DNA of 47,449 bases from Prevotella sp. (GTDB lineage Bacteria > Bacteroidota > Bacteroidia > Bacteroidales > Bacteroidaceae): assembly GCA_017477435.1 (NCBI GenBank), contig JAFUVV010000033.1, forward strand, positions 1 to 47,449, given 5' to 3'. This document shows, piece by piece, positions 9,991 to 42,836 of this stretch. Both the position numbers and the translations under genes were made by a program. Each line of letters begins with the position of its first letter. Position 1 is the stretch's first letter. The notes below the pieces were generated by a model. It did no database searches. It was not told the DNA's origin and was given only the letters and a program-made list of their open reading frames with translations.

Positions 9991-10075
9991 GGTACATGGG
10001 CTTTGTACTCTCAGTACACGGGCCTTGTACTGCCAGTACAAAGGCCTTGTACTCCGAGTACATGGCTTTTGTACT
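9991..10075. repeat. 22-bp palindrome array, GTAC family, copy A (4 units)
   Basis: Four units of (A/G)GTACA-N7-TGTACT start at 9991, 10013, 10035 and 10057, exactly 22 bp apart with 3-bp spacers. The 7-bp centres are TGGGCTT, CGGGCCT, AAGGCCT and TGGCTTT. It lies between divergent dgt and dut. Four other gaps of this window carry the same structure with the same copy number. Confidence 0.97.
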
Positions 10076-10187
10076 CCAGACGAGCCATTCGCCTGACTTC
10101 GATGAGTATACTTTGCAAAAGTAATGTAAAAAAGAATAAAAACTCGTTTTTTAGTGGTTAAAATTTACTGATATGGCAATAATTCAC

Positions 10188-10195
10188 TATCTTTG
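10188..10195 (+). promoter_or_regulatory. -7 element for dut
   Basis: TATCTTTG fits TAnnTTTG; a weak TTTA lies 20 bp upstream (10164-10167). It ends 27 bp before the ATG at 10223. A longer frame open from 10193 would begin inside this element, which supports the 10223 start. Confidence 0.6.
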
Positions 10196-10222
10196 TCGAT
10201 AATTTGGACAACAGGTAGTATT

Positions 10223-10660
10223 ATGATAGAAGTAAAAGTTGTAAATAAGGGCCATCAGCCTCTTCCTGCCTACAGCACCCCTCAGAGTGCCGGCATGGAT
10301 CTTCGTGCCAATCTCTCCGAGCCTGTCACGCTCCGTCCCATGGAGCGCCGGCTCATCCCGACGGGTCTCCACATTGCCCTTCCCGAGGGATATGAGGCAC
10401 AGGTGCGCCCCCGCAGCGGCTTGGCCCTGAAGAAGGGAATCACGGTGCTCAATTCGCCCGGCACCATCGATGCCGACTATCGCGGCGAGGTGGGCGTGCT
10501 GCTCATCAACCTCTCGCAGGAAGACTTCGTCGTCAACGACGGCGAGCGCATCGCCCAGATGGTCGTGGCACGACACGAGCAGGTCGACTTCGCCACGGTG
10601 ACCGTTCTCGACGAGACAGAGCGCGGCGAAGGTGGATACGGACATACAGGAGTGAAATAG
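10223..10660 (+). CDS. dut: dUTP diphosphatase
   Basis: 145 residues, the normal size of trimeric dUTPases. The five motifs are present: AGMDLRA (motif 1), RPRSGLA (2), the uracil-pocket block [13 protein letters not shown] (3), RIAQMVV (4) and the C-terminal arm [10 protein letters not shown] (5, the flexible P-loop-like motif). It converts dUTP to dUMP plus pyrophosphate, keeping uracil out of DNA and feeding thymidylate synthesis. The ATG at 10223 gives the usual [10 protein letters not shown] start; upstream in-frame codons overlap the promoter. Its stop TAG shares its G with the GTG of the next gene, so translational coupling is likely. It is the first gene of a four-gene operon with envelope genes. 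Confidence 0.96.
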
Positions 10661-12570
10661 TGAAACCAGTCAAGATATCGATGCATAACTTCCTCTCTGC
10701 ACTGCGCAGAAGAGGCTTTGCGGCTGCGGTGACGCTCGTGGTGGCGCTGTGGCTGATGTCGTCGTGCGTGGCGATAGCACCGGCACTTATGGGCAGCATG
10801 TCGGGGGTATTGGCCGGGACAACAGCCAATAAGACGGCAAAAAAGCATAAAAAGACGAGCAAGAAAGATGCTGAGAAATATCAGGTCATTCCTCGCGAAC
10901 AACGTCTCTCTGCCAACGACCGCATGCGCTTCGACTACTTCTTCCTCGAAGCTGTGCGGCTGCAGAACGCCGAGAAGTTCGACGCCGCCTTCGACCTGCT
11001 GCGACGCTGCATCGAGATCGACTCGCTCGCACCCGAGCCCTACTTCAAACTCTCTGCCTACTACACCGAGCTCAACCAAGATACGCTCGCGCTCGCCTAT
11101 CTCGAAAAGGCCGAGCGGCTGAACCCCCACAACGATACATACCACGAGAATGTCGCGCGATATTATATAGGTATGAAGCGCTACGACAAGGCCACCGTGG
11201 CCTACGAGAACCTCCTGCGCGACAACACCCAGCGCACCGACGTGCTCAACATCCTCCTGCAGCTCTACACGCAGAGCCGCGACTACGACAATATGCTTCG
11301 CACTATCGAACGCATAGAGCAGGTCGAGGGAGTAAGCGAAGAAACCACACTCTCGAAGATGCGCACTTATGAGCTGAAAGGAGATAAGGATATGGCGTTC
11401 AAGACGTTGAAGGCACTCTCCGACAAACACCCGAGCGACGTCAACTATAAAGTCATGCTCGGCAACTGGCTCATGTCCAACGGCGACAAAGAACAGGCCT
11501 TCGGCATCCTGAACGCAGCCCTCGCCGACGAGCCAAACAACGGATATGCACAGAGCTCCATGTACGACTACTACAAGTCGGTGGGCCAGGACTCGCTCGC
11601 TACCATCCTCCGCGACGACATACTCCTGAGCAACCGCACGCCGATGAAGACAAAGCTGACCATGCTGCAGCAACTCATACGCGACAGCGAAAAAGCCGGC
11701 GGCGACAGCACGGAGATACTCTCGGTGTTCAACAGGATGATGGCTGCCAACCCCAAAGAGACCGACGTGGCACTCCTCGAGTCGGTATATATGACCGTGA
11801 AGAAAATGCCACAGGACACGATCAACCAAGTCTATCGCCACATCCTCAGCGTGGAGCCCGACAATGTCAACGCACGGCTGCCGCTCATCGAACACAACTG
11901 GAGACAGCAGAACTGGCAGGAAGTGGTCGAGCTGTGCAGCACCGGAGCACAGTATAATCCCGATGAAATGGCGTTTTATTACTACATGGGACTCGCCTAC
12001 TACCTCCACGACGACGAAGACGGAGCACTCGACGCACTCACACGAGGCGTGGCACAGATAACCGACAAGACAAATCCCAACCTCGCAAGCGACTTCTATT
12101 GCATCATGGGCGACATCCTACATAAGAAAGGACGCGTCGGCGAAGCGTATGCAGCCTACGACAGTTGCCTCCACTGGAAAGAAGACAACATGCAATGTCT
12201 TAACAACTACGCCTACTTCCTTAGCGAGGAAGGCGGCGACCTGAAAAAGGCAGAGGACATGAGTTTCAAGACCGTCAAGGCCGAACCCACCAACGTCAAC
12301 AACCTCGACACCTACGCATGGATACTCTTCCGGCAGGGACGCTACGAAGAGTCGAAGATATACATCGACCAGGCACTTCGCAACGACACCGACTCCGTGC
12401 CTAATGCCGTCGTCATCGAACACGCCGGAGACATCTACTACATGACCGGACGCACCGATGAAGCACTGCAATACTGGCGCAGGGCATTCGACACCGGCGA
12501 GGGAACGGCCATACTTCCAAAAAAGATAAGACAAAAGAAATACATTCCCGATGAAAAGAAACAGAAATAG
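10660..12570 (+). CDS. TPR-repeat lipoprotein
   Basis: 636 residues from GTG 10660, which overlaps the dut stop and has AGGAG 7 bp upstream; ATG 10681 is the alternative. A lipobox (LMSSC, Cys36 from GTG) makes it a lipoprotein. A Lys/Thr-rich linker (about 53-70) precedes many tetratricopeptide repeats (for example FDLLRRCIEIDSLAPEPYFKL, LALAYLEKAERLNP, DGALDALTRGV, EALQYWRRAFDTGE) along nearly the whole chain. TPR arrays are protein-binding scaffolds. The neighbours, a DUF4292 lipoprotein and an EnvC-like protein, form a conserved Bacteroidota cluster, so a role in outer-membrane or cell-wall assembly is plausible. The specific partner is unknown. Confidence 0.88.
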   Translation: MKPVKISMHNFLSALRRRGFAAAVTLVVALWLMSSCVAIAPALMGSMSGVLAGTTANKTAKKHKKTSKKDAEKYQVIPREQRLSANDRMRFDYFFLEAVRLQNAEKFDAAFDLLRRCIEIDSLAPEPYFKLSAYYTELNQDTLALAYLEKAERLNPHNDTYHENVARYYIGMKRYDKATVAYENLLRDNTQRTDVLNILLQLYTQSRDYDNMLRTIERIEQVEGVSEETTLSKMRTYELKGDKDMAFKTLKALSDKHPSDVNYKVMLGNWLMSNGDKEQAFGILNAALADEPNNGYAQSSMYDYYKSVGQDSLATILRDDILLSNRTPMKTKLTMLQQLIRDSEKAGGDSTEILSVFNRMMAANPKETDVALLESVYMTVKKMPQDTINQVYRHILSVEPDNVNARLPLIEHNWRQQNWQEVVELCSTGAQYNPDEMAFYYYMGLAYYLHDDEDGALDALTRGVAQITDKTNPNLASDFYCIMGDILHKKGRVGEAYAAYDSCLHWKEDNMQCLNNYAYFLSEEGGDLKKAEDMSFKTVKAEPTNVNNLDTYAWILFRQGRYEESKIYIDQALRNDTDSVPNAVVIEHAGDIYYMTGRTDEALQYWRRAFDTGEGTAILPKKIRQKKYIPDEKKQK

Positions 12571-13447
12571 AAAGTCGTGCATCATGCGCTCTCTGACGCT
12601 TCTCGTCAGCATAATGCTGCTCGCCTCCTGCGGCTCTAAGCACAATGCCGTCGGCGAGAGTGCCGTGACAGCACTGGGCGGTGATGCAAAAGCCGTCGAC
12701 GAAGCACTGCTCGAGAAAGTGAATGCCAACAGCGTGACAGAAGAGAATATCGTGGGCAGTATGAAATTCACGCTCGACTTGAACGGCCGCACAATCTCGG
12801 CACCCGGCTCGCTCCACATGCGCAGAAACCAGATAATACGTCTGCAAGTGTTCGTACCACTGCTCGGGTCGGAAGTAGGACGCGTCGACTTCACACCCGA
12901 CAAGGTGCTGTTCGTCGACCGACTCCACAAAGAATACATCGAAGCCGACTACTCTTCCATCAGCTTCCTGAAGAACAACAACATCGACTTCTATACCCTG
13001 CAGTCGCTGTTCTGGAACCAACTCCTCGTACCCGGGGCCGACAAGGTGACCTCCTCCGACCTGAAACGCTACTCGCTCAACGGCTACAAGACCGCCGGAC
13101 GACTCGACATCGCACTCTCCGACGGTAAGCTGAACTACGAATGGTCGGCCGACAGGCTCACATGCCTTATACAGCAAGCCCTGCTCACATACGAGAGTCA
13201 GACACGTGGAAAATCGGAAATGACATGCAACTACTCCGACTTCGTCAGCCTCGGGAAAAAGAAATTCCCGTCCACAATCGTCTTCACTATGCACACCAAG
13301 GCCACAGGCAAAGAGCGGAATGCAACGATGACGATGAAACTAAATAGTGTCAGCAACGACGCAAAGTGGGATGCAACCACCTCACTGTCGGGAAAATACG
13401 AGAAGATAGAATCGTCATCCCTGTTTGATAAAATACTGAAAATGTAG
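12551..13447 (+). CDS. DUF4292 lipoprotein (LolA/LolB-like fold likely)
   Basis: 298 residues; the reading frame overlaps the end of the TPR gene by 20 bp. An internal ATG (residue 12, MRSLTLLVSIMLLASCGS) gives a compact signal peptide with lipobox LASC and may be the true start. The body is beta-rich with alternating strands (SMKFTLDLNGRTISAPGSLHM, IIRLQVFVPLLGSEVGRVDF), as expected for DUF4292, a family I associate with a lipoprotein-carrier-like half barrel. In Bacteroidota this gene commonly lies between a TPR gene and an M23/LytM gene, as here. It could bind lipid or lipoprotein at the periplasmic face of the outer membrane; function is not established. Confidence 0.82.
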   Translation: MKRNRNRKSCIMRSLTLLVSIMLLASCGSKHNAVGESAVTALGGDAKAVDEALLEKVNANSVTEENIVGSMKFTLDLNGRTISAPGSLHMRRNQIIRLQVFVPLLGSEVGRVDFTPDKVLFVDRLHKEYIEADYSSISFLKNNNIDFYTLQSLFWNQLLVPGADKVTSSDLKRYSLNGYKTAGRLDIALSDGKLNYEWSADRLTCLIQQALLTYESQTRGKSEMTCNYSDFVSLGKKKFPSTIVFTMHTKATGKERNATMTMKLNSVSNDAKWDATTSLSGKYEKIESSSLFDKILKM

Positions 13448-13449
13448 CG

Positions 13450-15114
13450 ATGCGCCGACTATTCATCATCCTCATAGCCATCCTCCTCGCCATGCCGACA
13501 CCGTCGCAGACGAAGAAGACTTCCACCGCAGCAAAGAAGACAACCGCTGCGGCGAAGAAACAGCCGGTCCAGAAGAAGACTACCACCACTACAAAAAAGA
13601 AAACCACCACCACTTCGTCGACGAAAAAGAAGACCACAACGCCGACAAAGAAAAAACAGACCGCTGCCAAACCCACCTACACCAACAAGAACATACAAGG
13701 ACTGCAACAGCAACGCAGTGAGATACAGCGTAAAATCCGGCAACAGGAGCAGGCACTCAAGGCAAACCAGGCCGACGTGAAAAAACGCCTCGACAACATC
13801 ATGCAAATCAATGCCGACATCACGGCACACAAGAAGAACATCGAGAACATCGAGAAAGAGATCGGTACCCTCGACGCCGACATCAATCTGCTCACCATAC
13901 AGCTCGACAATCTCCAGTCGCAACTCACGCAATATCGCTCGCGCTACATCAAATCGATGAGCTATCTCACACGCAATCACACCGTTGAAGACAGGCTCAT
14001 GTTCATCTTCTCCGCCAAAAACCTCGCACAGATGTATCGCCGGACACGCTTCGTCAAGGAGTACGCCGACTATCAGAAAGTGCAGGGCGAAGCCGTGAAA
14101 GCCAAACAGGAGCAGGTGAAAGAGAAGCACGCACAGCTGCAGAGCGCCAAGGGACACAAAAACACGCTCCTCGAACGTGGTAAGAAAGAACGCACCGACC
14201 TCGAAGCACAGCAGTCGGAACAGAAAAAGATGGTCAGCACACTGCAGCGACAGCAGAAGACCATACAAGGCGTCATCGCCCAGCAGAAGCAGAAAGATGC
14301 CAAGCTGAATTCAGAGATCGACCGCCTCGTGGCTATTGAGATAGAGAAAGCCCGACAACGCGCAATCGCCGAGGCAAAGAAGAAAGCCGAGGCTGAGGCC
14401 GCCGAGAAGAAGCGCAAGGAGGAGCTCGCCCGCAAGAAAGCCGCCGCCGCTGCCGCCGCAAAGGAGAACGAGCGCCTCGTAGCCGAGGCCCGCAAGCGCG
14501 AGGCAGAGGCAAAGAAGAACATGCGCGACGCACAGAACAGCGGCGACGAGGCCGCACGCCAGCGGGCAGAGCAACAGCTCAACGAGGCCGAATCAAACCG
14601 CAAGGCAGCCGAGTTGAAAGCCTCTGCCGACGCTACACGCAACAAGAAAGACATCGAAAACACCACCCGCCGCAACGAACGGGAGACATGGCTGAGCTCC
14701 TCAGACCGCAAGCTCAGCGGCAGCTTCGAGGCAAACAAGGGACGCCTGCCAATCCCCATCACAGGCGGATACCGCATCGTCAGACACTTCGGACAATACA
14801 ACGTGGAAGGACTGAAAAACGTCAGTCTCGACAGCAAAGGCATAAACATCAAGGGTCAGCCCGGCTGTCAGGCCCGCTCCATCTACGACGGCACCGTAGG
14901 AGCAGTGTTCAGCTACGACGGCGCATGGGCCGTGATGGTCAGTCATGGAGCATATATCTCCGTCTACTGCAACCTCCGCAGCGTCAGCGTGAGCACCGGA
15001 CAACGCGTCTCTACCCGTCAGGCTCTCGGCACCGTGGGAACCGACAACATCCTGCAGTTCCAGCTCCGACACCGCACGGCAAAGCTAAACCCCGAGGCAT
15101 GGTTAGGCAGATAA
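13450..15114 (+). CDS. EnvC-like murein hydrolase activator (degenerate LytM/M23)
   Basis: 554 residues, starting 2 bp after the DUF4292 stop. Signal peptide about 1-19; a Lys/Thr/Ala-rich stretch (20-75, tandem KK-TTT words); a long coiled coil (about 80-420, with an AEAKKKAEAEAAEKK region); and a C-terminal LytM domain (about 430-554). The zinc ligands of active LytM enzymes are missing: HxGxD is SKGINI, and the final HxH is LQF (ILQFQLRH). This is the pattern of EnvC/NlpD-type activators, which bind and switch on amidases instead of cutting peptidoglycan. I infer a role in septal cell-wall splitting with the two upstream lipoproteins. A strong terminator follows. Confidence 0.88.
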   Translation: MRRLFIILIAILLAMPTPSQTKKTSTAAKKTTAAAKKQPVQKKTTTTTKKKTTTTSSTKKKTTTPTKKKQTAAKPTYTNKNIQGLQQQRSEIQRKIRQQEQALKANQADVKKRLDNIMQINADITAHKKNIENIEKEIGTLDADINLLTIQLDNLQSQLTQYRSRYIKSMSYLTRNHTVEDRLMFIFSAKNLAQMYRRTRFVKEYADYQKVQGEAVKAKQEQVKEKHAQLQSAKGHKNTLLERGKKERTDLEAQQSEQKKMVSTLQRQQKTIQGVIAQQKQKDAKLNSEIDRLVAIEIEKARQRAIAEAKKKAEAEAAEKKRKEELARKKAAAAAAAKENERLVAEARKREAEAKKNMRDAQNSGDEAARQRAEQQLNEAESNRKAAELKASADATRNKKDIENTTRRNERETWLSSSDRKLSGSFEANKGRLPIPITGGYRIVRHFGQYNVEGLKNVSLDSKGINIKGQPGCQARSIYDGTVGAVFSYDGAWAVMVSHGAYISVYCNLRSVSVSTGQRVSTRQALGTVGTDNILQFQLRHRTAKLNPEAWLGR

Positions 15115-15146
15115 GGGAAACGGTAACGCATGCCTTATAACGATAC

Positions 15147-15189
15147 AAGCCCCAAGCAGATACGAAATATGGCCGTCTGCTTGGGGCTT
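15147..15189 (+). terminator. Terminator of the dut-TPR-DUF4292-envC operon
   Basis: 14-bp perfect stem AAGCCCCAAGCAGA (15147-15160) with 15176-15189, 15-nt loop, followed by TATCTTTTCCTT. It is 33 bp after the stop codon. Confidence 0.9.
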
Positions 15190-15229
15190 TATCTTTTCCT
15201 TAAATTATCTTACCTATTTTGTACCGCAA

Positions 15230-15334
15230 CTATCAAAGTCAGATAGCGACACTATCAAGCACAGATAGCACCACTATCAAAGTCAGATAGCGACGGTATC
15301 TAGCACAGATAGCACCACTATCAAGCCCAGATAG
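15230..15334. repeat. 22-bp palindrome array, CTATC family (5 units)
   Basis: Five units of CTATC-N7-GATAG start at 15230, 15252, 15274, 15296 (GTATC) and 15318, exactly 22 bp apart. Centres alternate AAAGTCA, AAGCACA, AAAGTCA, TAGCACA, AAGCCCA and the 5-bp spacers alternate CGACA, CACCA, CGACG, CACCA, so there is a 44-bp higher-order repeat. It lies between convergent genes. Arm, 7-bp centre and period match the GTAC arrays although the sequence is unrelated. Confidence 0.97.
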
Positions 15335-15372
15335 TAATGATTGTTGCATCGAAAGGCTCGGATGAAGTATTG

Positions 15373-16437
15373 TCACAGCTGCAGTCCGTCGAGCAGGCGG
15401 ATGTAGGTCTTGATTGCATCGTCGATTTCTTTGTCGTAGATATATTCGTCAGCCGTGTGCGACCGGCTGCTCTCGCCGGGTCCCATTTTCAGCGATGTCC
15501 ACGGCATCAGCGCCTGGTCGCTGAGCGTCGGCGAGCCGAAAGGCGTCTTCCCGATGGCGATGGCGCGGGCCACAAATGGGTGGTCGGGGTCGATGTGCGA
15601 AGGGTTGAGGCGCATGGAGCGCGGCTCTGCGTCGCTCTTCACGTGGCTACGGATGATGTCGAGCACCTCTTGGTTGGTGTAGAGGTCGTTGGTGCGCACG
15701 TCGACGGTGATGTGACATCGGTCGGGTACTACGTTGTGGGCGTTGCCGCCGCTGATGGCTGTTGCCTGCATGAGCGTCGGTCCGAGCAGTGGACTGACTT
15801 TCTCGAAAGTGTATGTGCGTATCCAGTTGAGGTCGTCGATTGCCTCATAGATGGCGTTTACGCCCTCTCGTCGTGCTGCATGTCCGGCGCGGCCGTGGGT
15901 GGTGAGGTCGAGCACCATGAGTCCTTTTTCGGCGATGGCGGGTTGCATGCCTGTGGGTTCGCCGACGATGGCGAGGGCTATGGGTGGCAGGAGCGGCACC
16001 ATGTGCTGCATGCCGCCGGTGCCGGAGATTTCCTCTTCGGCTGTGGCGAGGAAGATGAGGTTGTAGTCTTGAGTGGTGCCGTTGAGGGCTATGAAGGTGT
16101 GGAGCAGGGCAACGAGTCCTCCTCCGCAGTCGTTGGAACCGAGCCCGTAGATGCGTCCGTGGCTGTCTGTCTCAGGCTTGTAGGGGCATCGGGTCCACGA
16201 ATCGACGGGTGCTACGGTGTCGATATGTGCGTTGAGAAGGATTGTGGGCTTGTCGGGATTGAATCCTTCGGACTTGCACCACACGTTGTTCTTCTCTCGC
16301 GTCGGACTGAGTCCGTGCTCCATCATCCATCCGGCGAGTTTTCTGGCGGCTTCGTCCTCGTGGCGACTCGTGCGAGGGATAGCGATGAGACTTTTGAGGA
16401 GGTCGGTGGCTGAGGGGAAGAGGTGTTGGGCGTCCAT
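15373..16437 (-). CDS. argE: M20 metallopeptidase, probable N-acyl-ornithine deacylase
   Basis: 354 residues, cytosolic. Di-zinc site of the M20/ArgE/DapE family: H71 and D73 (LNAHIDTV), D103 (GSNDCGGGL), E134-E136 (TAEEEISG), a GEPTGM block, and a late H in SRSHTADEYI. The lid domain begins at KGLMVLDLTTHGRAGHAA. The overall architecture matches the short (about 355 aa) Bacteroidota ArgE type. In Bacteroides arginine synthesis runs through N-succinylornithine, so the substrate may be N-acetyl- or N-succinyl-ornithine; succinyl-diaminopimelate desuccinylase is the main alternative. No arginine genes lie nearby. It starts 8 bp after the end of the aldo/keto reductase, so it may be third in that operon. 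Confidence 0.75.
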   Translation of the reverse strand: MDAQHLFPSATDLLKSLIAIPRTSRHEDEAARKLAGWMMEHGLSPTREKNNVWCKSEGFNPDKPTILLNAHIDTVAPVDSWTRCPYKPETDSHGRIYGLGSNDCGGGLVALLHTFIALNGTTQDYNLIFLATAEEEISGTGGMQHMVPLLPPIALAIVGEPTGMQPAIAEKGLMVLDLTTHGRAGHAARREGVNAIYEAIDDLNWIRTYTFEKVSPLLGPTLMQATAISGGNAHNVVPDRCHITVDVRTNDLYTNQEVLDIIRSHVKSDAEPRSMRLNPSHIDPDHPFVARAIAIGKTPFGSPTLSDQALMPWTSLKMGPGESSRSHTADEYIYDKEIDDAIKTYIRLLDGLQL

Positions 16438-16445
16438 GAGAAATC

Positions 16446-17888: not shown

Positions 17889-17893
17889 GGGGG

Positions 17894-19540: not shown

Positions 19541-19625
19541 AGTACAAAGTCTTTGTACTCCCAGTACATGGGCTTTGTACTCCGAGTACATGGCTTTTGT
19601 ACTGCGAGTACATGGGCCTTGTACT
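19541..19625. repeat. 22-bp palindrome array, GTAC family, copy B (4 units)
   Basis: AGTACA-N7-TGTACT units start at 19541, 19563, 19585 and 19607. Centres: AAGTCTT, TGGGCTT, TGGCTTT, TGGGCCT. Located between the divergent polyferredoxin and acyl-CoA synthetase genes, upstream of both promoters. A CTGCCGGCAG palindrome overlaps its left edge. Confidence 0.97.
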
Positions 19626-27050: not shown

Positions 27051-27123
27051 CGGGGTGTAGCGCAGTTGGTAGCGCACTACGTTCGGGACGTAGGGGTCGG
27101 GCGTTCGAGTCGCCTCACCCCGA
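27051..27123 (+). tRNA. tRNA-Pro (anticodon CGG)
   Basis: 73 nt from CGGGGTGTAGCGCAG. The acceptor CGGGGTG pairs with CACCCCG, discriminator A, CCA not encoded. The anticodon arm is CTACG-TTCGGGA-CGTAG, so the anticodon is CGG for codon CCG. T arm GGCGTTCGAGTCGCC. Its 3' half is copied twice just downstream. Confidence 0.95.
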
Positions 27124-27130
27124 CAAGACA

Positions 27131-27161
27131 AAAGACAGTGTTCGTAAAGAGCGCTGTCTTT
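27131..27161 (+). terminator. Terminator of tRNA-Pro (copy 1)
   Basis: AAAGACAGTG (27131-27140) pairs with CGCTGTCTTT (27152-27161, one G-T pair), followed by GTTCGTTTT. It starts 7 bp after the tRNA. Confidence 0.85.
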
Positions 27162-27218
27162 GTTCGTTTTCAGGGACGAATGGCTCTGAGCCAAATGTCG
27201 CCTCACCCCGACAAGACA

Positions 27219-27249
27219 AAAGGCAGTTGAATTTATTTCAGCTGCCTTT
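27219..27249 (+). terminator. Terminator hairpin in repeat copy 2
   Basis: AAAGGCAGTTGAA (27219-27231) pairs with TTCAGCTGCCTTT (27237-27249) with one G-T pair, then GTTTGTTTT. The stem sequence differs from copy 1 but the pairing is kept. Confidence 0.85.
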
Positions 27250-27310
27250 GTTTGTTTTCAGGGACGTATTGCTCTGGGCCAAATGTCGCCTCACCCCGAC
27301 AAGCTAAAAT

Positions 27311-27333
27311 ACAGTATTCGCGTGGGATGCTGT
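27311..27333 (+). terminator. Terminator hairpin in repeat copy 3
   Basis: ACAGTATTC (27311-27319) pairs with GGATGCTGT (27325-27333) with G-T pairs, then CTTTTTC. A third, sequence-divergent but pairable version. Confidence 0.75.
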
Positions 27334-27372: not shown

Positions 27373-27457
27373 AGTACATGGGCCTTGTACTTGGAGTACA
27401 TGGGCTTTGTACTGTGAGTACATGGCTTTTGTACTGTGAGTACATGAACCTTGTACT
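27373..27457. repeat. 22-bp palindrome array, GTAC family, copy C (4 units)
   Basis: AGTACA-N7-TGTACT units start at 27373, 27395, 27417 and 27439. Centres: TGGGCCT, TGGGCTT, TGGCTTT, TGAACCT. It lies between the tRNA-Pro repeats and the 3' end of the next - strand gene, beyond that gene's terminator. Confidence 0.97.
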
Positions 27458-34854: not shown

Positions 34855-34939
34855 GATAGCGGTATGATGGTTTTGAGTTATCTGTTTCTATATATATAAT
34901 AAGGTGTGGATGGCTTGTCCCGAAGAATTCTTCGCCGGC

Positions 34940-35024
34940 AGTACATGGGCCATGTACTTGCAGTATCTGAACCATGTACTCCGAGTACAAAGCCCATGTA
35001 CTCGGAGTACAAGACCTTTGTACT
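34940..35024. repeat. 22-bp palindrome array, GTAC family, copy D (4 units)
   Basis: Units start at 34940, 34962 (AGTATC, degenerate), 34984 and 35006. Centres: TGGGCCA, TGAACCA, AAGCCCA, AGACCTT. A 14-bp perfect palindrome CGAAGAATTCTTCG (34921-34934) is centred about 21.5 bp before the first unit. It lies between two genes of the same direction, 86 bp upstream of the paralog-2 start, and ends 7 bp before the upstream gene's stop. Confidence 0.96.
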
Positions 35025-35031
35025 GTCGTCG

Positions 35032-37230
35032 TCAGTCGTTCATGGTGCTGCCGTCACGGTTTATCTTTATCCTCAACTTGTTTTGTCGGCGGGGTTTCAG
35101 CTTGATGATGCTCTTTCCGTCTGCCTGTCCCCATTGGCCTGTATGCACTACGATGGCTGTACAGTTGTCGAGCAGTGGTTCTACTGTGAGGTCGGCCCAC
35201 TGTCCGCTCTCGTCGACGTTGAGAGTCATAGTCAGCGGCCCGAATGGTGTCTCTATCTCGCGGAGCGATGTCTGCATCCCTGCTCCGAGCCACTCCTGCG
35301 GCAGTCCTTCGAGCAGATGGAGTTCTGTTCCCCTGTCGAGTTCGAGCAGGTGGCAGGCCAGTCGGATGAACTCTGCGCTGGCCCAGTTGTGCGGCATGTC
35401 GCCGACATTATTGGCTTGCATGTCGCGCGGATTGTGCTCCTCGCGCCAGTTGTACATCGTCGAGGCATGGTTGGCAAAGGCATATAGTGCGTCGGCTGCC
35501 TTGCCTCCCTCGCCGCTCCACAGCCAGGCATGGCCGTAGAAGCTGGCAAAATAGTTCCATATGCCGTCGATGATCCATCCTGTGCCCATCACCATGCCCT
35601 CCTGCAGGGTGGTTTCCAGCATGCGCATAGTGCCCACGGCAATCGAGTCGCCGATGTCGAAGACCTGACCGGGATAAATGCTCTGGCAGAACGTCCACTG
35701 CGCCCGTTGCGGCAGACCCCTCTGCTCGGGCTTCATCATATTGTTGAGATATTTGTTTCCGAAGCTGTCCACATCCAGGTCCCTGGCTGCTGCTTTGCGG
35801 AAGACGCTATAGAAATCGTCGTACTCCTTGCGCCATTTCTTTGCGTCGTTCTTTTTTCCGAGCCAGTCGGCTGCCGTTATCATTGCCTTCATGCCGGCGA
35901 GCGACCACAGCGTGTTGGAGTATTCTGGCACCTTCTCTCCGCCGTTCAGCCCTCCGTCGATGAAGCCCGGCGGTATCAGTCCGTCGTCTTCGGGGAACTC
36001 GTTTGTCAGTGTCTGTTCGCGCAGGGCATGGGTGTTGTCGATGGTGCGCGAGAGGTTCTCCCAGTGATTCAGAAGCCATTGCTTGTCTTGGGTGAGCATG
36101 GCGTGGCGCACGCAGGTCCACAATATGAGGCCATTCTCTTTCCAGAACGTAGGTTGCAGTTTGCGGAATCCGCCGTCTTCCCGCTGGAACGACAGGCTGT
36201 ACTCTATCCCTGCGCGTGCCTCGGTGCCCTTGCCGAGCATGGCAGTGGCTTCGGAGAGGAAGGCACCGTCGACTATCCACAGGCCGCGATACCATGTAGG
36301 ACCGACCTGCAGGCTGATGTTACCGTCGACAATCTCTCGCGCCTGCCATATCCCGCGTATTGAAGCATCGAGAAGATTTTGTATCTCTGCGTCGGGCACA
36401 ATGATGTGTCCATAGGGTATCTGCTTTGTCTCCTCCCAGTATCGGCATACGGCTGCATAGTTTCCGGGTATTTCCTGCAATGTGCTTTCAGGGCTTTTCT
36501 CCATGCGTGTTGCCAGTTCCGAGGCGAGCCCGTTGTCGTAGATGCCGGCTATCCACACCTCGCCGCCTGCGGGTATGAAGATAGGTTCAAGCTCCACACT
36601 CGTCTTCAGGTCGGTCATGTTCTGTCTCACACGTATTGCAGGCCGCGACATCGTGAAGTGCTTCGTAGAGTCGATGGTTATCACGTTGCCTTTTGCTTCT
36701 ACCTTGAACTGCGAATTCACATACACCACGGGGCGTATCGTCTTGGCTGCGGCACTCGAGTTGCTTACCTTGGTCAGTACGATGTCCTCCCTGTCGCTGG
36801 TGAGAGGGTGAGTCATCTCGGTGCCTGCGACGGCCCCCTTTGCGCTGGAATAGATGTACTGTTCTACGCGACTCTTCTCCCTACCCAGCGTGCTGGGCAG
36901 GACGACTGCAGGCACACGGGCCGACACAAGCTTGGCCGGTTCAAACTTCTGGCTTTCGTCTGCCAGCATGTGAACCACCGTCTTGAAGCCGTTGAAGAAC
37001 TTTCCATTGCCGAAACTGTAGAGCAATTGTCCTTGTGGGCCGACCAGTGTCTTGAAGCTGTCGTCGGCAAAGGCAGGGGTAGTCTGGGCCCACTGCGGAG
37101 CAAAGCGGTAGTCGACGTATCGCTCTTGTGCATTGGCATGTGATGTGTTAGTACATATGAGAATGGCGAGGAAGAATGTTTTTAAAAAATAATTCTTCCT
37201 TGGATCAGATTTTCTGAGTTTTTCTTTCAT
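35032..37230 (-). CDS. Secreted six-hairpin glycosidase-like protein
   Basis: 732 residues with an N-terminal signal (FLKTFFLAILICTNTSHANAQ). A beta-sandwich region (about 40-285) precedes an (alpha/alpha)6-type barrel (about 290-660) with typical aromatic and acidic blocks: GPTWYRGLWIVDGAF, FWKENGLILWTCVRHA, NTLWSLAGMKAMITAA, GTGWIIDGIWNYFASFYGHAWLWSGEGG. A final beta domain (about 665-732) follows. This is the layout of GH78-, GH95- and GH15-like enzymes with beta-sandwich flanks. Candidate acids are in WIVDGAF and EFPEDDGLIPPG, but I cannot assign a family. It is 42 bp downstream of the EEP gene and most likely belongs to the same transcript. Confidence 0.75.
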   Translation of the reverse strand: MKEKLRKSDPRKNYFLKTFFLAILICTNTSHANAQERYVDYRFAPQWAQTTPAFADDSFKTLVGPQGQLLYSFGNGKFFNGFKTVVHMLADESQKFEPAKLVSARVPAVVLPSTLGREKSRVEQYIYSSAKGAVAGTEMTHPLTSDREDIVLTKVSNSSAAAKTIRPVVYVNSQFKVEAKGNVITIDSTKHFTMSRPAIRVRQNMTDLKTSVELEPIFIPAGGEVWIAGIYDNGLASELATRMEKSPESTLQEIPGNYAAVCRYWEETKQIPYGHIIVPDAEIQNLLDASIRGIWQAREIVDGNISLQVGPTWYRGLWIVDGAFLSEATAMLGKGTEARAGIEYSLSFQREDGGFRKLQPTFWKENGLILWTCVRHAMLTQDKQWLLNHWENLSRTIDNTHALREQTLTNEFPEDDGLIPPGFIDGGLNGGEKVPEYSNTLWSLAGMKAMITAADWLGKKNDAKKWRKEYDDFYSVFRKAAARDLDVDSFGNKYLNNMMKPEQRGLPQRAQWTFCQSIYPGQVFDIGDSIAVGTMRMLETTLQEGMVMGTGWIIDGIWNYFASFYGHAWLWSGEGGKAADALYAFANHASTMYNWREEHNPRDMQANNVGDMPHNWASAEFIRLACHLLELDRGTELHLLEGLPQEWLGAGMQTSLREIETPFGPLTMTLNVDESGQWADLTVEPLLDNCTAIVVHTGQWGQADGKSIIKLKPRRQNKLRIKINRDGSTMND

Positions 37231-37272
37231 CGTTAGTATTTAGTCAGGGTTAGCGTCTATAGGTTGATGGCA

Positions 37273-38109
37273 TCATTTCCATCGCATTGTCAGGTCGACT
37301 GTGAGCGGTCGGTGGTCGGAACTGAGAGGGTCGTCGACGACCGTGCTGCGGCGCACTTTCGCTATTCCGATGCCTTTCCTGACCATTATATAGTCTATAC
37401 ACTCCGTTGGTTTCGGTGCAGGGAATGTTTTCGCTGTGGTGTCGTTGAGAATCTGGAAGTTGCTCTCGAAAGCGCCGATCACTTTGCTATCGGGCTCTGC
37501 ATTGAGGTCGCCGGCGATGAAGAACGGCTTTCCGCTCTTCGCTGCCTCGCGACTGATTATCTCCACCGATGCCAGTCGAGCCTGCTCGGTGAGGTCGAGA
37601 TGAGTGCAGGCATAGACATACTTCTCCGTCTCCACGATGAGCAGCATGCGCGGTTCGCTCCCCGGGAGCGGTATGCGACGAACGCTTACGGGTTTCTCGC
37701 GGGTGAGCATCCCCACACCGTAGCCACCTCCGGCAAAGCTGATTGCTGTTGCCCACACGGGATGCATGCCCGTCAGCCAGGCGAGTTGGCGCAGCTGGTC
37801 GGCGTAGAGCGTGCGGCCATTCACGCTGTCGAGTTCCTGAAGAGCGACGGCATCGGGATGTGCAGAGGCGATGACGCCTGCTATCCGCTCGGCCGACACA
37901 ATGCCGTCCATGCCTTCGAGATGGCGAACGTTGTAGCTCATCAGCCGAAGCTTCAGGTGCTTGCCATTGCCTTTTGCCGCAGTGGGTAGTGAGAAAACAA
38001 ATAGAAGAAGTATCGGCAGCAGGATCGCTGCAATGGATGCTCCACCTGACCTCCCAAAGGGGAGGGACTTTGTCAGCCTGGAGTGTAATAATGAAAGTGT
38101 AGAGTGCAT
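37273..38109 (-). CDS. Endonuclease/exonuclease/phosphatase-fold hydrolase
   Basis: 278 residues. EEP catalytic blocks: LMSYNVRHLEG (N60), ALQELDS, CTHLDL, AGDLNAEPDS and SSDHRPLTVD with the terminal D-H pair. A hydrophobic segment (about 24-45, ASIAAILLPILLLFVFSLPTAA) is a signal peptide or anchor, so it acts outside the cytoplasm, perhaps on phospho-substrates of glycan or lipid origin. Residues 11-25 (RLTKSLPFGRSGGAS) are encoded by a GC-rich hairpin element (38046-38076) resembling the one at 43-60, so either the repeat was captured into the N-terminus or translation starts later at a non-ATG codon. It lies in the long - strand block. Confidence 0.82.
   Translation of the reverse strand: MHSTLSLLHSRLTKSLPFGRSGGASIAAILLPILLLFVFSLPTAAKGNGKHLKLRLMSYNVRHLEGMDGIVSAERIAGVIASAHPDAVALQELDSVNGRTLYADQLRQLAWLTGMHPVWATAISFAGGGYGVGMLTREKPVSVRRIPLPGSEPRMLLIVETEKYVYACTHLDLTEQARLASVEIISREAAKSGKPFFIAGDLNAEPDSKVIGAFESNFQILNDTTAKTFPAPKPTECIDYIMVRKGIGIAKVRRSTVVDDPLSSDHRPLTVDLTMRWK
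38046..38076. repeat. Dispersed GC-rich hairpin inside the EEP gene's 5' end
   Basis: CTGAC (38046-38050) ... GTCAG (38072-38076) enclose CTCCC-AAAG-GGGAG. The CCTCCC/GGGAGGG core and following ACTTTG resemble the element at 43-60. It is read as protein (LTKSLPFGRSGG) in the EEP gene. Confidence 0.6.
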
Positions 38110-38149
38110 GCCTCCTGCCTCTTTGTTAATTTGTTAATATGATAATCTG

Positions 38150-39646
38150 TTAATCTGTTCCCGTGTTCCATCCTTGCCTCACTTTCATCGGTGTGCGCTT
38201 GTCGGAGAGAACCTCGCTGCTCGCAGCACGGCGGTCGAGCTTCGCTTTGTGTAGCGTGAAGTCGGGGGTGTTGTATGAGAACATCAGGCGGTCGTAGTAT
38301 CTTCGTGGGTTCTTCTGCGGCAACAGGAACGGCTTGCTCACGCGACCCTCATCGTCGATGGATGCGAGATACAGCAGCGAGAAGAGTCCGTTCTCGCGCC
38401 GTGAGGTGAAGACAAACCAGTGGGAATCGAGAGACCAGTTGTGATAACTGTCGGCTCGCGGGCTGTTGGCTTCGTCGATGGGGCGCGATTGTCCTGTCGT
38501 CAGGTCCATCAGCCATTGTTCGCTCTCGTTGTGCCAGATAGGGAAGCATCCGTAGTCGCAGAGAGTGAACATCAGATAGCGGCCGTCGTAGGAGGGACGG
38601 GGGTGCACTGCGCTCTTGCCCATCTGCACGGCATTGAAGAGTGTGTCGACGTGGTCGCCCCACTCACCGCGGTCGGCATCGAAGGCGATGGAGCAGATGT
38701 TGTATTGTATCTTATTATAGTCGGTGCCGATATCCTCGTATTTGCGCGAGGTGCAGAAGTAGAGTGTCTTCCCGTCGGGGGCGAACACTGGATAGCTCTC
38801 CATCCAGTCGGGTTGCTTCACCAGCGGCGATAGTATCAGTTCGTCAGTCTCCACGTCGTAGATCTGCAGGTCGCTGGCGTAGTCGAACACTTCGATGCGC
38901 TCGTTGTTGACGGCATGGAATATCTGTTTGGTGTCGTTGGTGGAGAAGGCGATGTAACGTCCCGACGGGTGCCAGTAGGGGTACACACACGTTCCGAGGG
39001 TCTCCTCGGTCTTGGTGTTGAGCCATTTGCGGCCGTTTTCCGTTTGTACCAGCGTTGCTCCGTGCTTGCCTCGGATGTGGAACACGAATCGGTCGGGATT
39101 GGTGCGCCAACTGTTGTGGCAGTTCATGCATCCTGATTCTATCGAACTGTTCTCCAATATTGGCGACTCGTCGAAGTTGGCAAGTTGCCGTTGGTATAGT
39201 CCCATGCGTCCCCATATCTCGTAGCCGGGTGCGATGCGGCGGTAGGTCAAGCCCCATGCATCGAGTTTATGCGGACTCACGTTGATATTGAAGTCTTTCC
39301 AGGCGTGCCACTTGCCGTTTTCCCGGGTGCAGACCGTCACTGTCAGCTTTTGCCCTTTGTTGGCTTCTATGAGTTTGTGCCAGTCGTCTATCGGGAAGTC
39401 GGCCCGCTTTCCATTGACGTGCAGCGTCTTGCCGCTCTTGCCGCTGACGGTGACGTCGATGCGTTCTGCACCGGTCACTTCGAAGTTGAGCGGCGCAATG
39501 CCTACGGGAATGGTCACGTCGGTGTAGTCGGGGTATATCGCCGGAAGTTTCGACTCTCCGATGGGATTCTTCGGGCTGTCGGTGCAGGAGAATAGCAGCA
39601 GTAGGACAGTGAGAGCTGCGAATGTTTTCAAGGTGTGTGTATTCAT
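38150..39646 (-). CDS. Beta-propeller lipoprotein with a CxxCH motif
   Basis: 498 residues, lipobox FSC (Cys21). After a beta-sandwich-like region (about 40-130) come WD40/PD40-type repeats: YPYWHPSGRYIAFSTNDT, YPVFAPDGKTLYFCTSRK, VHPRPSYDGRYLMFTLCD and NWSLDSHWFVFTSRRE, as in TolB-like propellers. Before the repeats, GCMNCHNSW (C173, C176, H177) is a classical heme c attachment site, unusual in this family. If heme is attached, the protein could be redox-active or sense heme; if not, the cysteines may bind metal. The start codon overlaps the DUF6057 stop by 4 bp, so the two are coupled and may form a membrane complex. Confidence 0.8.
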   Translation of the reverse strand: MNTHTLKTFAALTVLLLLFSCTDSPKNPIGESKLPAIYPDYTDVTIPVGIAPLNFEVTGAERIDVTVSGKSGKTLHVNGKRADFPIDDWHKLIEANKGQKLTVTVCTRENGKWHAWKDFNINVSPHKLDAWGLTYRRIAPGYEIWGRMGLYQRQLANFDESPILENSSIESGCMNCHNSWRTNPDRFVFHIRGKHGATLVQTENGRKWLNTKTEETLGTCVYPYWHPSGRYIAFSTNDTKQIFHAVNNERIEVFDYASDLQIYDVETDELILSPLVKQPDWMESYPVFAPDGKTLYFCTSRKYEDIGTDYNKIQYNICSIAFDADRGEWGDHVDTLFNAVQMGKSAVHPRPSYDGRYLMFTLCDYGCFPIWHNESEQWLMDLTTGQSRPIDEANSPRADSYHNWSLDSHWFVFTSRRENGLFSLLYLASIDDEGRVSKPFLLPQKNPRRYYDRLMFSYNTPDFTLHKAKLDRRAASSEVLSDKRTPMKVRQGWNTGTD

Positions 39647-41181
39647 GGTCTTTTCTTGCTTTTTATGAGTGGTATGGCTGCTTGCATGTATTGGTTGGCA
39701 AGGAAGTTGTCGGGGTTCTGCTTGTAGAGCGACTCAAGGATGTAGAACAGTCTGTTCGGCTGGAAGATATAGTCTTCTGTGCTCCGTAGTGAGCGCAGCC
39801 GTCCATAGAGAGGATGGTTGTTGATGGCATCTTCGTTGCCCAGCAGGAGCAGTTGCTCGTTTGCCCAGCCGCGATAGTAAAGGGTTTTTGCAAGTTGATG
39901 CAGGTATTTTCGTGCCACGTCGTACTGTCCGTTCACGATTTCAATTTCTGTCAGCCGCTTCGTGAGGCGTGTGCTTTTGTTGTGGTTGAACAGACTTTCC
40001 TGGGAGTCGTAGAAGAATCTCTGCGCTTCGTTTACCATTCCAATGCGGAAGAGTATCTCGCCGATGACGTTTGAGGAAAGGTTGTCGCGTTGCATGAAGA
40101 GGAACAGGCCTTCTGCACCCATCTGCGGATAGTCGAAGAGATTGTCGGCCAGTTGTCCTCTGATGGCCAGTGCGAGGTCGCAGCAGGCCACCGACATCGA
40201 CGAGGAGCGATTGAACGTGTCGGTGTCGGTGAGTATCTTATCCCACTGCTCGGTGTAGACGAGGGAGTCGTAGCTGATGAGATAGTTGAGGTCGGTATTG
40301 TATTTCTCGGCTGTCAACTTCATCCCGACGGCGACGAGCGCCACGGTGATGGCCGACGTGATGATTGGTTTCATCTTCCAGCGGGGCAACAGTGCCATGG
40401 CTGCAATTGCTGCAGAGGTGATCCACATGGAGTGGATCTGCAGGCTGGGTATTTCGGTGGGGACGCTGTGGTAGGGGATTCCCTTGAATATACGCCAAAG
40501 GGGGTAGGGGGTGTAGAATGTCGAGATCCAAACGACTGCAAATGTCCACGCCGTCAGCATGGCTGCCAGCAGACAGCAGCTGGCTGCCTTCTTCTCTCTG
40601 ATGCCAATTGCCACGAGCATTGCTGCTTCGTAGAGCGCTACGATGTAGGCCGTGGTGCCGAAGAGATGGTAGAACACTGCGATGTATGGCAGGAGTATCA
40701 GCGCGTTTTTCCTTGTCGGCCGGAAGAGCAGGCACGACAGGAGTGCTGCTGCCATGGCAATGGGATACGACAGCAGTGTGTCGGCATAGCTCATGAATGC
40801 CAGCAGCAACAGTGCCGGCACGAAGCTTATCGGGAACGCTGCGTCGCCTGCTCCGTCGCGGCGGGCAATAGTCCAGCTTAGCCTGTGCACGGCTGTTGCC
40901 AGCAGTGCGATGATGACTGCGCCGACCCATGGGGTGTGATAGAACTGGGTGAAGAACTCGCCCAGATAGCGTGCCAACCCGCCGGGGACGGCGATGCGGT
41001 CGATGAAGTACTCGCTGGTGAACTGGAACATCTGCCCCCACTCCTGATATATGATCAGGTGGGTCTGCTTCAGGACGTAGAAAAGGAAAACGGCCACGGC
41101 GAAGAGACACGAAAGGATGGCCTTCCATGGCACCTCTACCGTGGGCGTTTGTTTGACAGTCGGTTTAGTTTTTCTTGACAT
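39643..41181 (-). CDS. DUF6057-type polytopic membrane protein
   Basis: 512 residues. About nine hydrophobic helices lie in residues 15-285 (AILSCLFAVAVFLFYVL, VGAVIIALLATAVHRL, FVPALLLLAFMSYA, LIPYIAVFYHLFGTTAYIVALY and others), followed by a soluble tail of about 230 residues of alpha-helical TPR-like character (YDSLVYTEQWDKIL, NEAQRFFYDSQESL). The combination of a membrane block plus a C-terminal helical-repeat domain is what I recall for DUF6057 in Bacteroidota, commonly next to a TolB-like lipoprotein. Function unknown; surface polymer or cytochrome-related assembly are possibilities. kbl ends 24 bp upstream. Confidence 0.7.
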   Translation of the reverse strand: MSRKTKPTVKQTPTVEVPWKAILSCLFAVAVFLFYVLKQTHLIIYQEWGQMFQFTSEYFIDRIAVPGGLARYLGEFFTQFYHTPWVGAVIIALLATAVHRLSWTIARRDGAGDAAFPISFVPALLLLAFMSYADTLLSYPIAMAAALLSCLLFRPTRKNALILLPYIAVFYHLFGTTAYIVALYEAAMLVAIGIREKKAASCCLLAAMLTAWTFAVVWISTFYTPYPLWRIFKGIPYHSVPTEIPSLQIHSMWITSAAIAAMALLPRWKMKPIITSAITVALVAVGMKLTAEKYNTDLNYLISYDSLVYTEQWDKILTDTDTFNRSSSMSVACCDLALAIRGQLADNLFDYPQMGAEGLFLFMQRDNLSSNVIGEILFRIGMVNEAQRFFYDSQESLFNHNKSTRLTKRLTEIEIVNGQYDVARKYLHQLAKTLYYRGWANEQLLLLGNEDAINNHPLYGRLRSLRSTEDYIFQPNRLFYILESLYKQNPDNFLANQYMQAAIPLIKSKKRP

Positions 41182-41205
41182 TTCTTTGGATTGAAAACAT
41201 TTGTT

Positions 41206-42393
41206 TTATTTCAATACTCCGAGCTCTTTGCCCACCTTTATGAAGGCATTGATGCACTTGTCGAGCTGTTCGCGTGTGTGGCCTGCTGATATCTGGACAC
41301 GTATGCGGGCCTGCTCTTTGGGCACGACGGGGTAGTAGAATCCGGTGACGTAGATGCCCTCTTCCTGCATCTTTGCGGCATACACCTGCGAGAGCTTTGC
41401 GTCGTAGAGCATCACTGCGCAGATGGCGCTCTGTGTGGGCTTGATGTCGAAGCCGGCGGCCATCATCTTGTCGCGGAAATAGCCTACGTTCTCCACCAGC
41501 CGGTCGTGCAGCTCGTCGCTCTCCTTGAGCATCTTGAACACCTCGAGGCTTGCTCCGATGATGCTCGGTGCCAATGAGTTAGAGAAGAGGTAAGGACGTG
41601 AGCGCTGGCGCAGCAGGTCGATAATCTCTTTCCGTCCGGTAGTGAATCCGCCGAGAGCGCCTCCGAAGGCCTTACCCAGTGTGCCGGTGTAGATATCCAC
41701 GCGGCCGTAGGTGTTGAAGAACTCGCTCACTCCGTGGCCGGTCTTTCCCACGACACCTGCCGAATGGCTTTCGTCTACCATCACGAGAGCGTCGTATTTC
41801 TCGGCCAGATCGCATATCTTATCTATCGGCGCCACATTGCCGTCCATGGAGAACACTCCGTCGGTGACGATGATGCGGAAGCGTTGCTCCTGTGCCTCCT
41901 GCAGGCATCGCTCCAGGTCTTGCATGTCGGCGTTGGCATAGCGGTAGCGCTTTGCCTTGCACAGACGCACGCCGTCGATGATAGAGGCGTGGTTCAGAGC
42001 GTCGCTGATGATGGCGTCCTGGTCGGTGAACAGCGGTTCGAACACGCCGCCGTTGGCATCGAAGCAGGCAGCATAGAGGATGGTGTCCTCGGTCTTGAAA
42101 TAGTCGGAGATGGCAGCCTCGAGCTCCTTGTGGATGTCCTGCGTACCGCAGATGAAGCGCACCGACGACATTCCGAAGCCGCGACGGCCCATCATGCGCT
42201 TGGCACCCTCGATAAGACGCGGATTGTCCGACAGTCCCAGATAGTTGTTGGCGCAGAAATTGAGCACTTCTTTTCCTGCAACATCGATAGCTGCCCGCTG
42301 CGGGCTCTCAATCAGGCGCTCCTCTTTGTAGAGGCCTGCCTCACGAATCTCAGCAAGTGTCTGCGTGAGATGTTCTTTCATTTTTCCGTACAT
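41206..42393 (-). CDS. kbl: Glycine C-acetyltransferase (2-amino-3-ketobutyrate CoA ligase)
   Basis: 395 residues, alpha-oxoamine synthase family of PLP enzymes. PLP-binding features: VDESHSAGVVGKTGHG (D207 and H210 contact the cofactor) and Schiff-base lysine K241 in YTGTLGKAFGG. The N-terminal NFCANNYLGLSDNP and GFGMSSVRFICGTQDIHKELE blocks are those of Kbl, with the length of the E. coli enzyme. It cleaves 2-amino-3-ketobutyrate with CoA to glycine and acetyl-CoA, the second step of threonine catabolism, or runs in reverse. Serine palmitoyltransferase is a close relative but has a different N-terminus. No threonine dehydrogenase gene is in the window. It has its own consensus promoter. Confidence 0.93.
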   Translation of the reverse strand: MYGKMKEHLTQTLAEIREAGLYKEERLIESPQRAAIDVAGKEVLNFCANNYLGLSDNPRLIEGAKRMMGRRGFGMSSVRFICGTQDIHKELEAAISDYFKTEDTILYAACFDANGGVFEPLFTDQDAIISDALNHASIIDGVRLCKAKRYRYANADMQDLERCLQEAQEQRFRIIVTDGVFSMDGNVAPIDKICDLAEKYDALVMVDESHSAGVVGKTGHGVSEFFNTYGRVDIYTGTLGKAFGGALGGFTTGRKEIIDLLRQRSRPYLFSNSLAPSIIGASLEVFKMLKESDELHDRLVENVGYFRDKMMAAGFDIKPTQSAICAVMLYDAKLSQVYAAKMQEEGIYVTGFYYPVVPKEQARIRVQISAGHTREQLDKCINAFIKVGKELGVLK

Positions 42394-42464
42394 AGTAATA
42401 TTGATTTAAGTTGTCGTTTCTCTCTGCACAACGGGAACGGGGTCCCCCTTGTAAAATTCAGATA

Positions 42465-42495
42465 CAAAGTTAGTGCAAATCGGAGACAATGCAAA
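42465..42495 (-). promoter_or_regulatory. Consensus promoter of kbl
   Basis: On the - strand: TTTG (complement of 42492-42495), 19-bp spacer, TAACTTTG (complement of 42465-42472). It gives a leader of about 65 nt to the ATG at 42393; a short GGGG-T-CCCC hairpin (42439-42447) lies in that leader. Confidence 0.88.
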
Positions 42496-42578
42496 AGAAA
42501 AACAATCTTTTTTTAACCCAAATCGGTCATTAGACTTTATGGTAGAGATGCATTTGTTTTAGCCAGATAAGCGGTTTT

Positions 42579-42613
42579 ATCTTTGAAGGCGTAGCGGGCT
42601 ACGTCAAAAAGAT
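42579..42613. repeat. Isolated 35-bp imperfect inverted repeat
   Basis: ATCTTT...AAAGAT outer arms and GGCGTAGC/GCTACGTC inner arms around a GG centre, in the middle of the 590-bp gap between divergent kbl and GH127 genes. No T-run. No gene is supported in 42496-42751. Confidence 0.6.
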
Positions 42614-42751
42614 GAAAGCGGTAAGATGGCAAAACAGGGACAGCTATAGCATAAAGATAGTTATTTCAAACTATGATATCCCTTTCCTTGGTCTGATGAT
42701 CGATTTGGGTTTAAAGGCCATTTTCTATTGCCCCTATCTTAGTTATGCTGC

Positions 42752-42836
42752 AGTACATGGCTCATGTACTCCGAGTACACGAGCCATGTACTGCGAGTAC
42801 AAAGGCCATGTACTGCGAGTACACGGGCCATGTACT
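42752..42836. repeat. 22-bp palindrome array, GTAC family, copy E (4 units)
   Basis: Units start at 42752, 42774, 42796 and 42818. Centres: TGGCTCA, CGAGCCA, AAGGCCA, CGGGCCA, so several units read AGTACA-NGGNCC-ATGTACT and are almost perfect palindromes. It lies 84 bp upstream of the GH127 promoter and 257 bp upstream of the kbl promoter. Confidence 0.97.

Follow-up and report, generated by a model that had tools for sequence, protein, structure and literature searches.

Bacterial genomes hold several known kinds of repeated palindromes and phased DNA sites. We compare them here with the GTAC arrays, tandem arrays of the dyad AGTACA-N7-TGTACT at a 22-bp step, found in a 47,449-nucleotide stretch of Prevotella sp. 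DNA (the window). Repetitive extragenic palindromes (REP) and the related REPIN and BIME, with their RAYT transposases, have a selected paired hairpin stem, a GTAG- or CGTC-type tag alongside, and a transposase gene flanked by repeats. The ~11-bp periodicity of genomes is short-range and is not locked to discrete sites. HU/IHF kinks lie 9 bp apart at weakly stacked steps, and the ParR sites of ParR-parC lie 11 bp apart. To our knowledge, neither of these nor any other DNA-wrapping array forms a chromosome-wide 22-bp lattice with species-specific four-dyad anchors. In Porphyromonas gingivalis, BrickBuilt, a minisatellite of the miniature inverted-repeat transposable element (MITE) type, has 19 elements of 1 to 22.8 units, made of 23-nt direct repeats with a leader and a tail (PMC4596501, available part). 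PINSR of Prevotella intermedia has a consensus of 188 bp, in which it differs from the arrays (PMC4755523, available part). A literature search in the open PMC library found no description of such arrays or of such a lattice.

The GTAC arrays resemble REP, REPIN and BIME as species-specific intergenic palindromes of high copy number. They differ in their strictly phased dyads without stem covariation, in having no copy relationship, and in a register that enters genes. With BrickBuilt they share a Bacteroidales host, intergenic placement and imperfect tandem units of similar length (23 nt); the arrays consist of 22-bp dyads with four units in 52/52 cases, whereas the available part of PMC4596501 gives BrickBuilt no fixed four and reports no dyads. 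Like the ~11-bp curvature periodicity, the register of the arrays is genome-wide, present in coding DNA and a helical multiple; unlike it, the register repeats mainly every 22 bp, is tied to discrete arrays and keeps its phase for kilobases. Phased sites are common to the arrays, HU/IHF, ParR-parC and other DNA-wrapping arrays. The unit number of the GTAC arrays is fixed, their placement is intergenic, their half-sites vary independently, GN/NC steps are nearly excluded in phase beside them, and coding DNA carries a register locked to them. We think that the arrays are probably strong anchors of a sequence-specific protein in a chromosome-wide 22-bp nucleoprotein lattice.

The window is the entire contig C1 of a 2.32-Mb Prevotella-type draft genome (G000) that is 78% complete. 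Its arrays, of the GTAC motif (family A) and of a sister motif (family B), are listed below with the footprint expected around the first.

9991..10075, no strand: GTAC array 1, four units, in a divergent spacer, 52 bp upstream of the HD-domain gene 8601-9938(-)
19541..19625, no strand: GTAC array 2, four units, in a divergent spacer
27373..27457, no strand: GTAC array 3, four units, between convergent protein genes, in a spacer that also holds two tRNA genes
34940..35024, no strand: GTAC array 4, four units, 7 bp beyond a stop codon
42752..42836, no strand: GTAC array 5, four units, in a divergent spacer
15229..15335, no strand: family B array, CTATC-N7-GATAG, five units, 22-bp step
9770..10296, no strand: expected extended in-phase footprint of array 1, ~220 bp per side, as suggested by pooled flanks rather than by this locus alone

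An earlier note on the window had described five arrays of four units each, at an exact 22-bp step and 85 bp long, and all of this was borne out. With up to 2 mismatches, the window holds 20 units against 0.87 expected, and 100 shuffles gave 3 at most. GC precedes the first unit in 5/5 arrays, in agreement with the common left edge reported before. The arms had been called nearly perfect with AGTATC as the one exception. That arm was found at 34962 in array 4 and equals the arm of family B, and a second deviating left arm, GGTACA, starts at 9991. The family B array was absent from the earlier list. An Rfam scan of the window returned two tRNAs only, with no match at any array.

Units in G000 were counted on 728 kb (31% of the draft), using our own gene caller (79% coding). 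Chains were seeded by a unit with at most 2 mismatches and extended by units with at most 4/12. All chains of at least two units had four (52/52), all 52 lay between genes, and the 12 lone units were near the number expected by chance. Under a stricter limit of 3 mismatches, the first 354 kb gave 30 arrays, 29 with four units and one with two. A pattern search of G000 gave 505 two-unit matches (at most 3 mismatches) and 325 three-unit matches, or ~163 arrays if each array yields two. The relatives of G000 belong to one large genus, and three-unit matches occurred in 18 of its 398 searched genomes, G000 included, with a runner-up count of 13. Array spacing was more even than that of random spacer positions (coefficient of variation 0.50 vs 0.76-0.81, P 0.003-0.005). 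Tandem, divergent and convergent spacers held 30, 12 and 10 arrays, against 33.2, 9.5 and 9.4 expected, and orientation in tandem spacers was 19 vs 11. The analysis used draft genomes, and several statistical tests were designed post hoc with the data already seen.

The unit layout is 6-7-6-3. Per column, the GTAC cores are 94-100% conserved and the whole arms 86-100%. The commonest 7-bp centre, AAGCCCA, occurs in 51/208 units, and centre orientation is mostly uniform per array (173/196 scored units match the majority of their own array, a count biased by construction). On either side an array ends in a short mirrored flank of approximately YYGGCNGC, with C at -1, G at -2, C at -4, and G at -5 and -6. 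The earlier argument, that a constant unit number despite diverged centres speaks for selection and not for slippage, was supported. An ordinary minisatellite was rejected, as copy number is fixed in two families. The conserved arms and unrelated centres are best accounted for by old arrays whose arms are kept by purifying selection.

The arms do not covary. Among 208 family A units, 36 had one arm changed, 1 was compensated, and 4 had both arms changed to non-complementary bases. Complementarity was near expectation for the outer bases of family B (match 0.246 vs 0.273) and for TAAGAG-N-CTCTTA, family C (0.587 vs 0.585 and 0.565 vs 0.595). It fell below expectation at the outer loop pair (0.163 vs 0.246) and in the 3-bp spacer (0.295 vs 0.451), and slightly exceeded it at flank positions 6 and 7 (0.67 vs 0.60; 0.44 vs 0.34). 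RNA hairpins, which the earlier note had considered, are therefore unlikely. The half-sites vary independently and thus seem to be read one by one in duplex DNA.

The strongest competitor is a REP/REPIN-like or MITE-like element of 85-130 bp, non-coding and copied in trans by a transposase that each lineage would have of its own, hence the species-specific motifs. We consider it unlikely. The motifs are indeed species-specific and intergenic, with ~160 copies, and at two loci the array looks like an insertion of 100-130 bp when compared with the sister species, unless that species has lost the segment. Four Y1-transposase genes were found; one has a family B array ~45 bp downstream and one a GTAC array ~680 bp away. 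Thus 2/4 lie within 1 kb of an array of one 22-bp family or another; around the other two, only GTAC units were looked for. In G092, a congener with a 2.5-Mb contig, two array copies are inverted and nearly identical, yet their identity spans at least 440 bp and exceeds the array; this is the only such pair. Against copying, nearest arrays share 27.7 of 37 variable columns versus 27.3 with shuffled loops (P 0.02), although the arms are 86-100% conserved. Loops of one array resemble each other no more than loops of different arrays do (P 0.89); only the 3-bp spacers are more similar within an array (0.52 vs 0.40). The centres differ as if drawn independently, so the arrays are not recent copies of one another. 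The paired stem selected in REP is missing from the array dyads (36 single-arm changes vs 1 compensated), and the GTAC flank consensus has no GTAG or CGTC tag. As for MITE traits, G000 flanks are short and symmetric, with no strong sharing past ~8 bases, and copies are unrelated in the variable columns; the array flank motifs of G092 are longer. No target duplication was seen by eye in five aligned loci. Copying would also leave the coding-DNA register kilobases away unexplained. The whole-element, REP/BIME-like role raised earlier thus found no support. On L085 (1195-1440), a Y1-transposase gene is preceded by repeated TCCGAAGGACT and CCCCGAAGGGG hairpins, perhaps a REP family of its own.

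The 22-bp register continues through neighbouring DNA, genes included, which the earlier note had missed; within coding DNA it remains as a weak signal out to 8 kb. At virtual half-site positions beside the arrays, alternately 13 and 9 bp apart, G at core base 2 and C at core base 3 are depleted. Violations of this GN/NC rule at the first eight virtual sites were 5, 6, 4, 11, 12, 16, 19 and 22% (104 flanks), reaching 25% at 130 bp. Other registers mostly had 34-50%, and 25-28% at shifts of 9, where half the sites are shared. The GN/NC deficit ranked this register lowest among 22 in 10/10 distance bins examined, to 2.2 kb. Family B flanks obey the same rule (11/112, 16/112, 41/168). The effect is mainly one of exclusion. 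The four excluded steps are those that stack most strongly in a table of stacking energies (rho 0.93). Phase drift in G000 was merely a few bp out to 4.4 kb, random anchors lacked such a signal, and G092 was noisier.

A re-test on masked, array-distant DNA, with G092 as a second species, used coding DNA only, with everything less than 600 bp from any detected repeat removed. When all periods from 15 to 30 bp were compared, the signal at both 0.7-4 and 4-8 kb was strongest at 22.00-22.04 in G000 and 21.97-21.99 in G092. A period of ~22 was strongest in 8/8 tests (two species, two indicators), with P 0.000-0.003 against 300 random-anchor sets scored on a coarser period grid. A less strict anchored test gave P 0.000-0.035 in 10/10 bins of G000. 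All anchored amplitudes were reduced by one synonymous shuffle. Distances between family A arrays (n=26) cluster modulo 22 (p 0.004), with a best period of 22.03 within 21.97-22.03; 1% of periods from 17 to 28 score as well as 22.0. Distances between A and B arrays (n=15) cluster likewise (p ~0.005).

The repeat was also detected without anchors, by autocorrelation of repeat-masked DNA at multiples of 22 bp up to 300 bp (the comb). For the two indicators, GN/NC and AT content, comb z was 7.0 and 3.9 in G000, 5.6 and 6.6 in the sister species (G216), 9.2 and 10.1 in G092, and 1.0 and 2.4 in 400 kb of E. coli K-12. At more than 2.5 kb from repeats it was 3.7 and 1.5 in G000 and 8.1 and 9.9 in G092. 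The G000 comb sits in coding DNA, with top lags of 66, 44, 88 and 110. The comb disappeared in two sets of six synonymous shuffles (z 6.3 to 0.2-1.5 in one set; 8.2 to 0.6-2.1 in the other), so it is not a protein repeat.

G216, a metagenome-assembled genome (RUG12886), is the nearest relative by the HD-domain protein next to the array, which is 88% identical. Its flanks without a detected array within 450 bp follow the G000 register, with 0.30 violations vs 0.32-0.48 at 17 other shifts (19 flanks); flanks with a detected array had 0.26 vs 0.32-0.46 at other shifts (14 flanks). Either the phase thus predates these arrays, or the sister species has lost arrays of its own. It seems that arrays form in step with some pre-existing feature, in agreement with the modulo-22 clustering of their distances.

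A regular protein lattice would be the simplest cause of so rigid a register over kilobases. We propose that a lineage-specific protein binds duplex DNA at the eight half-sites, in four dyads, of each array. As its strongest sites, the arrays would anchor a nucleoprotein lattice that repeats every 22 bp, makes contacts at alternating distances of 9 and 13 bp, and extends in phase across adjacent spacers and genes. Steps at the contacts may be kinked or unstacked, and the lattice would presumably organise the chromosome. The earlier picture of four dyads on one helical face was right, and a nucleoid or domain site was the best of its three guesses. Selection, or mutation bias from the bound lattice, could write the register into genes, and motif turnover between species could follow a shift in the protein's specificity. 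The 9/13 alternation and the GN/NC exclusion fit paired kinks of the HU/IHF type. HU-family matches number 2 in G000, 6 in G216, 11 in G092 and 6 in G110, and as they also occur in 9/14 control genomes, this likeness is a lead only. More tentatively, and with doubts about as heavy as our inclination, we suggest a bacterial chromatin, a protein lattice of exact 22-bp repeat along the entire chromosome, placed within genes by synonymous codon choice and pinned at ~160 species-specific intergenic four-dyad anchors. If so, the synonymous sites of genes in a major gut and rumen lineage would hold a second code, one of DNA structure that keeps its phase over kilobases. An abundant DNA-binding protein would await discovery, with the 85-bp array as a defined probe for it, and ordered bacterial chromatin would become a directly testable question.

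Several results weigh against a protein lattice. G000 intergenic DNA more than 300 bp from arrays (104 kb) shows no comb. Pooled loci (61 Prevotella-type and 18 Bacteroides-type records) gave weak combs, mostly with other lags on top. AT content peaks at 22 in E. coli too (z 2.4), against just 3.9 in G000, and for AA/TT steps the signal at odd multiples of 11 is almost equal in G216 and still substantial in G092; part of the signal may thus be the known ~11-bp periodicity. The agreement with stacking energies also reached 0.8-0.9 at a few other registers. In the less strict anchored test, 5/10 bins of G092 were at 0.065-0.21, not below 0.05. T at its core position is only modestly up near arrays (0.39 vs 0.25), so some decay of older outer units may contribute. 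Flank violations differ equally both ways between the sister species (20 vs 19, 434 pairs), which gives no sign of the array enforcing the register at present. Finally, families B (4-6 units) and C (3-8 units) have no fixed four.

Some of these points would suit DNA mechanics alone, with phased curvature or supercoiling at 11 bp per turn, no dedicated protein, and arrays as sites of extreme curvature. Here 22 bp would be two turns of 11.0 bp, a period known from bacterial genomes (PMC4132750, available part), and AA/TT steps do peak at odd multiples of 11 as well. Even multiples of 11 dominate for GN/NC. In G092 and G216 they also do so for AT content, if less clearly, but not for AA/TT. The phase is locked to the arrays to 8 kb, where the ~11-bp periodicity would be short-range and unanchored; the analysis in the available part of PMC4132750 covers lags of 30-101 bp. 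The arms are also sequence-specific and differ between species, and contacts alternate 9/13. We hold this explanation to be improbable. A cooperative transcription operator or an RNA element (terminator or processing hairpins), suggested by palindromic units of which some lie near gene ends, is most improbable, as spacer classes match expectation (tandem orientation 19 vs 11), compensatory changes are essentially absent and the window arrays have no Rfam match.

Other species put other motifs on the same 22-bp step, which is also new relative to the earlier note. In G000 itself the step is shared by families B, C and others, with family B forming 14 chains of 4-6 units after extension. Family C dominates in G216 (134 two-unit matches vs 30 in G000), and family B was not found in ~590 kb of that genome. 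G216 has a TAAGAG array in the spacer that matches the family B array at 15229-15335. An in-place motif switch between the sister species was considered and weakened: with arrays of all families spread over a large number of spacers, shared spacers are often to be expected, and length differences of exactly 44 and 22 bp (hand count) are seen in two spacers but not in others. In G216 (L239 7978-8478, L240 450-700), two GAAAATTTTGCTAGCAAAATTTTC-like palindromes flank two TAAGAG-type dyads. This GAAAATTTTGCTAGCAAAATTTTC-like element has four palindromes ~22 bp apart (hand count), in spacers that hold GTAC arrays in G000.

The G216 sample contained 13 GTAC arrays. Five of them could be paired with an array of G000, and in every such case one flank or both are 97-99% identical to G000, while the rest of G216 is mostly 70-93% identical; these flanks look like recent exchange or a chimeric bin. 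G216 contigs L241 and L244 alternate between 96-98% and 81-87% identity to G000, through recent recombination or chimeric assembly.

In G092, 21/21 AAAGC-N3-GCTTT arrays in 400 kb have four good units. This count came from 40 chains, after 15 two-unit and 4 weak three-unit chains were dropped and edge units with 4/10 mismatches were trimmed. Complementarity was near expectation at 5/5 pairs (104 units, weak chains included). The motif is present in 71/398 genomes. Its array flanks in G092 (L260-L279) carry motifs at fixed positions, GCTTACCYCTC at ~-19 on one side and CTATC..TTG-N5-CAA-N4-TTAC on the other; a coding C-terminus suspected beside these arrays proved wrong. A phage-borne repeat was rejected, with 0 exact three-unit GTAC matches in IMG/VR and one contig with AAAGC arrays. 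That predicted viral contig (L258, L259) may be host flank.

The neighbouring HD-domain protein also led to 80 named loci, mostly from uncultured Prevotella or Prevotellaceae, with Segatella, Prevotella, Xylanibacter, Leyella, Bacteroides, Phocaeicola and Paraprevotella among the named taxa. A de novo scan of these loci found 41 arrays in 32, and none in a triplet shuffle. Motifs differ across loci, for example in Prevotella histicola, Segatella maculosa, Bacteroides rodentium and Phocaeicola massiliensis. On L066 (1369-1516), ~eight 11-bp direct repeats, YAAAGGA, perhaps follow the same design with half-sites all in one direction.

Two further features were seen in the window. At 27051-27330, a tRNA-Pro gene is followed by what seem to be repeated partial copies of its 3' end, each with a hairpin-like stretch behind. 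At 95-179 lie three AAAGGGCCC units at a 22-bp step, near-identical on contigs C3, L194, L196, L203 and L206. The AAAGGGCCC units lie mostly near contig starts and are perhaps a piece of a longer repeated element.

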